Of a stretch of 36,254 bases of DNA, positions 18,666 through 19,653 are shown piece by piece. Position numbers and translations under genes: made by a program. Numbering within the stretch: position 1 is the first letter of the stretch; every line of letters starts with the position of its first letter. The DNA comes from Pseudomonadota bacterium (GTDB lineage: Bacteria > Pseudomonadota > Alphaproteobacteria > Rhodospirillales > 2-02-FULL-58-16): contig JACZQZ010000012.1 of assembly GCA_022545455.1 (NCBI GenBank), positions 1 through 36,254 of the forward strand. Direction: 5' to 3'. Below the pieces are notes generated by a model. That model was not told where the DNA came from and did not search any database. It saw only the letters and a list, made by a program, of their open reading frames with translations.

Positions 18666-18865
18666 GGCGCTGCCTCCCCCTCCCGCGTCAAACGTGACGA
18701 TGCCGCCGATTTTATCCCGCCCGGGTCGGTATGTATCGAAAAGTACCCTCGTCCGAACTCCCGCGGCCTCGGCGCCGCCACTATGGATTATACTGTCGAA
18801 ACCCGCTAAGGTCCGGCGGCGGCGTTCTCGATGTTGAAACCGAATATGAATGGCTTGGGGTAGTG

Positions 18866-18988
18866 ATGGCGGAAGACTTTGACCATACAGAAGACTTTGA
18901 CCATAAAAATGTAGCATTGGTGGCGGGGATAATCGGGGGCGTTGTCCTCTTGATAGGACTTGTGGGTGTTTTAATTACTCTTTTATGA
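18866..18988 (+). CDS. 40-residue single-pass membrane microprotein (unrecognised)
   Basis: I do not recognise this protein. It has an acidic, His-containing N-terminus in which a six-residue unit is repeated (EDFDHT, EDFDHK) and then one hydrophobic helix of about 23 residues (VALVAGIIGGVVLLIGLVGVLITLL) with GxxxG-like glycine spacing that favours helix packing. The repeat is also exact in DNA: GAAGACTTTGACCATA occurs at 18872 and 18890. The last codons overlap the start of the next small frame (ATGA). The track gives an 85-residue ORF from 18731, but the first 45 residues are Arg/Pro-rich and not convincing. No strong ribosome site is visible at ATG 18866, which is the main weakness. Confidence 0.5.
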   Translation: MAEDFDHTEDFDHKNVALVAGIIGGVVLLIGLVGVLITLL

Positions 18989-19101
18989 CCGCGGGTTATT
19001 TCACCCTTGGCATTGTCGTGGGGTTCATCCTGGCCGTGATTTTCCCGTGGGCGCTGTTGCGGAAGCTGGAGAGCAAGGACGAGGGAAAAGAAGAACGCTA
19101 A
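18985..19101 (+). CDS. 38-residue single-pass membrane microprotein (unrecognised)
   Basis: The ATG of this frame lies inside the stop codon of the preceding microprotein (ATGA), a layout typical of translational coupling. The product has an N-terminal hydrophobic helix (YFTLGIVVGFILAVIFPWALL) followed by a strongly charged tail, RKLESKDEGKEER. By the positive-inside rule the basic start of that tail would face the cytoplasm. It is too short for the supplied ORF track. The pairing with the upstream helix protein suggests a two-component membrane complex, but function is unknown and no family is recognised. Confidence 0.5.
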   Translation: MTAGYFTLGIVVGFILAVIFPWALLRKLESKDEGKEER

Positions 19102-19455
19102 GGCCCCGTTCGCGATCGAGCCCTTTTCCGTACAGGCCAACGCCACGCCGGGGTGCCGCATGGCGGGTTTCGGAGGGGTTTCCCCTACACCCGTTTCATC
19201 GCCGTAAAGCGACACGGACAACACGCCCGACCCGGCACCCGGCAATACCTGCCGCGTCCGCTTGGTGCGCGTGCTCCGCGTCGCCGGAAACATCGCGGCT
19301 CCGCCCCGCCATTCCCCACCATTTTCCTTGTTTTTCAGAAGGGTCCCCGTTCCCCCGCCGGCTGGCGCGGAGTTTGCTGGGGTGCGGGCGGTTGAAACCC
19401 AATCGGGCGTCGGGTTTCGGCTCCTCCACCAACAAAGAAGAATGAGGCTCTGGCA
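19102..19455. other. 354-base stretch without a convincing gene
   Basis: Open frames cross this stretch on both strands, but none has a ribosome site, family resemblance or normal composition. A short GGGGTTTCCCC hairpin lies near 19174. The last bases hold GAGG, the likely ribosome site of the lipoprotein gene that follows. The promoter for that gene should be here, but I cannot place it. Confidence 0.4.
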
Positions 19456-19653
19456 ATGATCAAAACCAAAACAGTCGCGCTGGCTTTGGCGCTGACAGGT
19501 CTTTCGGCCTGTGAAGCGGCGGACCCGTTCAACCTGTCGGGCCAGGAAGACTATAAACTCGGTGTCGGCAGTCCCCCCAACACACAACCGTTCAGCTCTT
19601 ATCCCCAGCCGGACGGCACCAGCGTCGTCATCAAGGTAGGGGTGAAAATCTGA
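19456..19653 (+). CDS. small putative lipoprotein
   Basis: A 65-residue product starting MIKTKTVALALALTGLSAC. The basic start, hydrophobic run and LSAC lipobox are those of a lipoprotein signal peptide, with acylation predicted on Cys19. The mature part would be only about 47 residues (EAADPFNLSGQEDYKLG, then a Pro/Ser-rich stretch and a short beta-like end VVIKVGVKI). GAGG lies upstream of the ATG. No family is recognised. It is convergent with radC, whose stop lies 57 bases downstream. It could be a small envelope protein or an accessory of an unlinked system. Confidence 0.55.
   Translation: MIKTKTVALALALTGLSACEAADPFNLSGQEDYKLGVGSPPNTQPFSSYPQPDGTSVVIKVGVKI

Follow-up and report, generated by a model that had tools for sequence, protein, structure and literature searches.

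Two overlapping reading frames of 40 (ORF1) and 38 (ORF2) codons lie on the forward strand of the window, the 36,254-nucleotide stretch of alphaproteobacterial DNA analysed here (Table 1). They encode the microproteins MAEDFDHTEDFDHKNVALVAGIIGGVVLLIGLVGVLITLL and MTAGYFTLGIVVGFILAVIFPWALLRKLESKDEGKEER, respectively, and the stop codon of ORF1 and start codon of ORF2 share an ATGA, as the initial annotation had described. The single membrane helix claimed for each protein was borne out by best 19-residue Kyte-Doolittle means of 2.9 (ORF1) and 2.4 (ORF2) and by AlphaFold2, which, run on single sequences, gave one helix each, spanning residues 7 to 39 of ORF1 (mean pLDDT 85) and 2 to 35 of ORF2 (mean pLDDT 82). 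Such a pairing had been argued to be improbable by chance, and ATGA-linked pairs of small hydrophobic ORFs were indeed absent from 150 dinucleotide shuffles of the window, while its real forward strand holds exactly one. The reduced GC bias reported for the pair is pronounced in ORF1 (43% GC, GC3 42%) and weaker in ORF2 (56% GC, GC3 76%), relative to 67% GC for the window and a GC3 of 90% for radC.

Table 1. Features of the microprotein locus (positions in the window, except where a locus prefix is given).
Feature	Position	Strand	Remarks
ORF1, 40-aa membrane microprotein	18866..18988	+	Acidic/His N-tail (predicted cytoplasmic), one helix, C-terminus at membrane
ORF2, 38-aa membrane microprotein	18985..19101	+	Single helix in which G9, G13, A17 and FPW-LLR are invariant, then a charged tail at the C-terminus, predicted to be cytoplasmic
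ATGA stop/start overlap	18985..18988	+	No Shine-Dalgarno (SD) before ORF2; same overlap in G619
Putative SD, GGGG	18857..18860	+	5 nt before ORF1 start; SD-like stretches also before other ORF1 genes inspected
Repeated EDFDH motif in ORF1	18872..18904 (18872-18886, 18890-18904)	+	Same-genus copies only
Block duplicated in sister species	18758..19376	+	One copy syntenic with window, one between DUF2189 gene and coxB
Different microprotein of 33-35 aa, five loci	L113:6794-6895, L118:12900-13001, L119:3405-3506, L120:13247-13354, L121:9962-10093		

Alignment of the ORF1 family revealed a short acidic/His tail in which an F is invariant, followed by a helix conserved at V19, A20, I23 and G34. The doubled EDFDH to which attention had been drawn is real but local, as members from other families have one acidic/His-F motif. 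In ORF2, Y5, L8, G9, G13, A17, V18, F20-P21-W22 and L24-L25-R26 are invariant, and the protein ends in the charged C-terminal tail noticed at the outset. The positive-inside rule predicts that the charged tails of both proteins are cytoplasmic. The ORF1 frame is open upstream to 18731; an N-terminal extension was ruled out because homologues in another family of the same order (f27) carry a stop codon shortly before the start, and because the ATG at 18866 is the one that the SD fits. An SD-like stretch was present close before the ATG of all ORF1 genes inspected. None was found at the ORF2 starts of the loci inspected, in either overlapping or non-overlapping arrangement, which would fit ribosomes reinitiating directly after they complete ORF1.

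Two further observations concern the DNA flanking the pair. A segment of 62 bp upstream of ORF1 (18773-18834) shows 77% identity to another site in the same genome (L004:1501-1562), just before an apparent adenylate/guanylate cyclase-type gene, and may be a shared leader or promoter. Positions 19456-19653 encode a small predicted lipoprotein of 65 aa (MIKTKTVALALALTGLSACEAADPF...), which has no match in Pfam or NCBIfam and is also present in the sister species, with a repeated NPF insertion.

Within the genus, a 361-bp region had matches in a single further genome, that of the sister species (G002): a site in synteny with the window (89%) and a second site on a different contig (84%). At both sites the two frames and the ATGA are intact; all three copies from the genus share the overlap, and a search for changes that would disrupt the frames in close relatives found none. 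With profiles built from these copies, both genes were found adjacent in four f27 genomes (G176, G220, G251 and G248), between a RidA-like and a BolA-like gene. Here ORF2 begins shortly past the ORF1 stop, without an ATGA overlap. Both genes, overlapping by ATGA, were also found in a genome of another order (G619). Conservation in relatives, which had been proposed as a check, was observed for the frames across families and orders and for the overlap in part.

ORF1 was found alone in about ten loci (in G077, G185, G224, G231, G249, G343, G501, G684 and G323), with tandem doublets in G249 and G343 (two genes each). Every strong ORF2 match was directly behind an ORF1. As ORF1 also occurs alone, it is the core gene and ORF2 its partner. 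What stands of the two-part membrane complex suggested initially is thus a genuine pair of coupled single-helix microproteins that may associate physically; the pair is not obligatory, because ORF1 is often present without ORF2. Pooled pN/pS of the f27 ORF1 genes was 0.11, indicating purifying selection; the values for ORF2 and for the three copies from the window's genus were about 0.7, which, coming from few substitutions, is a weak signal. From these comparisons it is close to certain that ORF1 and ORF2 are real conserved genes. Their translational coupling has good support: the genes are conserved across families and orders, ORF2 was found only behind ORF1 and no SD precedes ORF2. The class-level search sampled 385 genomes, many genomes are incomplete, and the publicly named relatives are metagenome-assembled; the profiles have 36-39 positions and miss diverged members. 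A plasmid search for ORF1 gave no match.

Neither protein scored above any Pfam or NCBIfam cut-off, matches being scattered and sub-threshold, and neither matched CydX or other named small oxidase subunits in these collections. The best sub-threshold Pfam score of the window ORF1 was to DUF2970 (PF11174; 21.4 bits, E 2e-4, cut-off 27), matching only about positions 20-51 of 56. DUF2970 proteins resemble ORF1 in being small membrane proteins, and one is encoded by the Bordetella cta1 aa3 operon (PMC11257404). However, the match is partial and below threshold, only two of seven ORF1 members match at all and the G684 member scored 16.6 bits, so this assignment was rejected. PF07835 (COX4_pro_2, cut-off 22 bits) was likewise discarded, as it matched none of seven ORF1 members and gave no match at ORF1 in a scan of the window's genome and its relatives. 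Searches of PDB sequences with the ORF1 and ORF2 profiles returned chance helices only. A phage origin of ORF2 was rejected from its absence from viral contigs (a scan of ORF2 only). As to small phage or defence proteins in general, neither ORF1 nor ORF2 had a PHROG or PADLOC match.

ORF1 and ORF2 belong to an undescribed family almost confined to marine alphaproteobacteria with one particular low-oxygen-type oxidase, a connection overlooked by the initial annotation. Cytochrome c oxidase of COX operon subtype a-III is carried by 15 of the 16 ORF1-positive genomes; the sole genome in which it was not detected (G251) is a 74% complete assembly. When CoxB of the sister species was searched across the window's order (317 genomes, E <= 1e-60), it was detected in 25 genomes and ORF1 in 11, with an overlap of ten (hypergeometric p = 1.4e-11, uncorrected for relatedness, which inflates it). 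Within families, co-occurrence gave p = 0.07 for f1 alone and p = 0.04 for the 17 f27 genomes listed. All five ORF1 genomes from other orders have the oxidase, as found by search in G619, G343, G684 and G323 and at its own locus in G501, and co-occurrence spans seven families in several orders. In the window's order, ORF1 was not detectable in fifteen genomes that have the oxidase, indicating that it is not a universal subunit; a profile search for diverged copies in the remaining a-III loci found none.

In G002, G224, G231, G501 and G323, five genomes from four families (f1, f27 with two genera, f97 and f38), ORF1 is encoded within the oxidase cluster or close to it (rough binomial p = 2e-7). 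In G224, G231 and G501 it is beside ctaB (haem O synthase) and two neighbours that are homologous across the three loci, a membrane protein with the motif HAFGxRYDLPLP and an epimerase-like protein; the stretch also includes coxB-coxA in G501 and G224. The ORF1 contig of G323 has coxB about 8 kb away. The second pair of the sister species, also overlooked at first, lies between a DUF2189-family gene and coxB-coxA-COX3-COX3-COX4-ctaB. Its two COX3-like genes are the mark of subtype a-III, which is defined by two successive COX3-like genes according to Degli Esposti (2014, PMC4013037; 2019, PMC6431628). Another study places this subtype mainly in marine oxycline alphaproteobacteria and, tentatively, describes it as probably active at lower oxygen than the main COX (PMC8879329). 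Recurrence across seven families and physical linkage in five genomes make a strong sequence-based case for a link between ORF1 and the oxidase. The same gene order (DUF2189/coxB-coxA-COX3-COX3-COX4) is annotated in the a-III (coxMNOP-like) cluster of a Bradyrhizobium plasmid; no ORF1-like gene was found in the two rhizobial a-III copies examined. The conserved membrane protein that recurs beside ctaB and ORF1 (L063:7557-9080, L064:2147-3604 and L069:1793-3271) is about 490 aa long with an AHAFGxRYDLPLP start region, and its G224 copy has no match in Pfam or NCBIfam.

The window genome has its own a-III cluster on contig C92, from which the pair is absent. The DUF2189-coxB interval is collinear in the two species, except for about 0.8 kb extra in the sister species that holds the pair, making this a clean absence in the window genome. 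The cox-locus copy of the sister species is 88% identical to the window copy and 87% to the other copy in its own genome, whereas the syntenic region is 93% identical. As the cox-locus copy is about equally far from both others, the duplication probably predates the species split, with the window genome having since lost its cox-locus copy and retained the one described here. Upstream of ORF1, the cox-locus copy of the sister species (L003:890-930) has 27 bp absent from the window copy. This segment contains GGTGGGATTTCGT, which also precedes TTATACT in G619, and its counterpart GGTGGGGTTTCGG precedes TTATAAT in G231. Given the absence of these 27 bp and the elements in relatives, the window copy may no longer have its original promoter.

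There is about an even chance that ORF1 and ORF2 serve the a-III oxidase, either as a small accessory subunit in the membrane or as a pair that aids its assembly. ORF1 would be the first member of a family whose single-helix membrane proteins, of 33-40 aa, serve this A1-type oxidase, with ORF2 as its translationally coupled partner in part of the family. As an inner-membrane protein, ORF1 would most likely have a cytoplasmic acidic/His tail and a helix that terminates at the periplasmic surface, and ORF2 would be inserted the opposite way round, its charged C-tail likewise being cytoplasmic. The helices could pack on each other or on the oxidase core via small-residue faces (G9/G13/A17 of ORF2 and G31/G34 of ORF1), and such packing might stabilise the oxidase or aid its assembly or cofactor loading. 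More tentatively, and with somewhat less than an even chance, they may represent a new family of coupled microprotein subunits dedicated to the a-III oxidase, with a small gene unit that may sit at the oxidase locus or elsewhere and is open to duplication and loss; they would be the first small subunits known for this oxidase.

Microproteins of terminal oxidases, such as CydX and CcoQ, are 30-70 aa long, have one helix and serve a respiratory oxidase. ORF1 resembles them in being linked to or co-occurring with one oxidase, but ORF1 and ORF2 are two coupled microproteins and are often encoded away from it. Another very small protein with one helix is subunit IV of the Paracoccus/Rhodobacter aa3 oxidase (PF07835), likewise an A1-type oxidase of alphaproteobacteria; its N-terminal tail is short and it terminates at the membrane. 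That oxidase is of a different subtype, and ORF1 has no PF07835 match. ORF1 and ORF2 presumably work like the microprotein subunits of terminal oxidases while being members of no family tested.

An oxidase role has to be reconciled with the location of the window pair away from the oxidase locus and of the f27 pair between RidA-like and BolA-like genes. The genes in fact stand alone in most genomes, and they might encode copper or envelope-stress membrane proteins that share the range and loci of the oxidase and do not act on the enzyme. The acidic/His tail of ORF1 could bind metal, the two tandem ORF1 genes of G249 (L065:6605 onward) are beside a heavy-metal CopA-type P-type ATPase and a CueR-like regulator, and the G684 ORF1 is near a CopC-like gene (named by eye from its sequence). 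The G249 neighbourhood also counts in favour of an oxidase role. Copper-related neighbours occur in two genomes only, compared with five in which ORF1 accompanies the oxidase cluster, and with 15 of 16 genomes oxidase-positive this explanation is unlikely. It is similarly improbable that co-occurrence is just a shared marker of one marine low-oxygen lineage or habitat, with an unrelated function. The within-family tests are weak, and the marine oxycline distribution of a-III (PMC8879329) could produce such a pattern, but not readily physical linkage in four families or co-occurrence over seven families and several orders.

Small size, patchy distribution, the tandem ORF1 genes of G249 and G343 and the two loci of the sister species are also what might be expected of type I toxin-like hydrophobic peptides. 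However, the best Rfam score in the region was 16 bits against a cut-off of 40 (novel antisense RNAs would escape this search), PADLOC and PHROG gave no match, and no sigma-70-like promoter was found on either strand. Together with the SD-like stretch before ORF1, the strong purifying selection in f27 and the co-occurrence with the oxidase, this makes a toxin very improbable. Least credible of all is that the frames are not genes and have opened by chance in a GC-shifted stretch. The three copies from the genus, with a pN/pS of about 0.7, and the nearly equal conservation of the block's non-coding DNA would be compatible with this; recovery of both proteins in other families and orders with gene order kept, the empty shuffles and the low pN/pS of f27 ORF1 are hardly so.

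Since a-III oxidases are little studied, a concrete microprotein partner would make their subunit composition testable; the literature passages on a-III that were searched mention no small single-helix subunit. If ORF1 and ORF2 do serve this oxidase, their discovery by way of an unnamed gene at a distance from it would show how annotation loses respiratory subunits of <50 residues. A different microprotein of 33-35 aa (for example, MRPRLKVLVLAIPTTGLIIFYVLFLTFPHWFPR), without a match in Pfam or NCBIfam, is encoded close to the a-III oxidase in five genomes without ORF1 (Table 1), and may be a second such partner of the enzyme.
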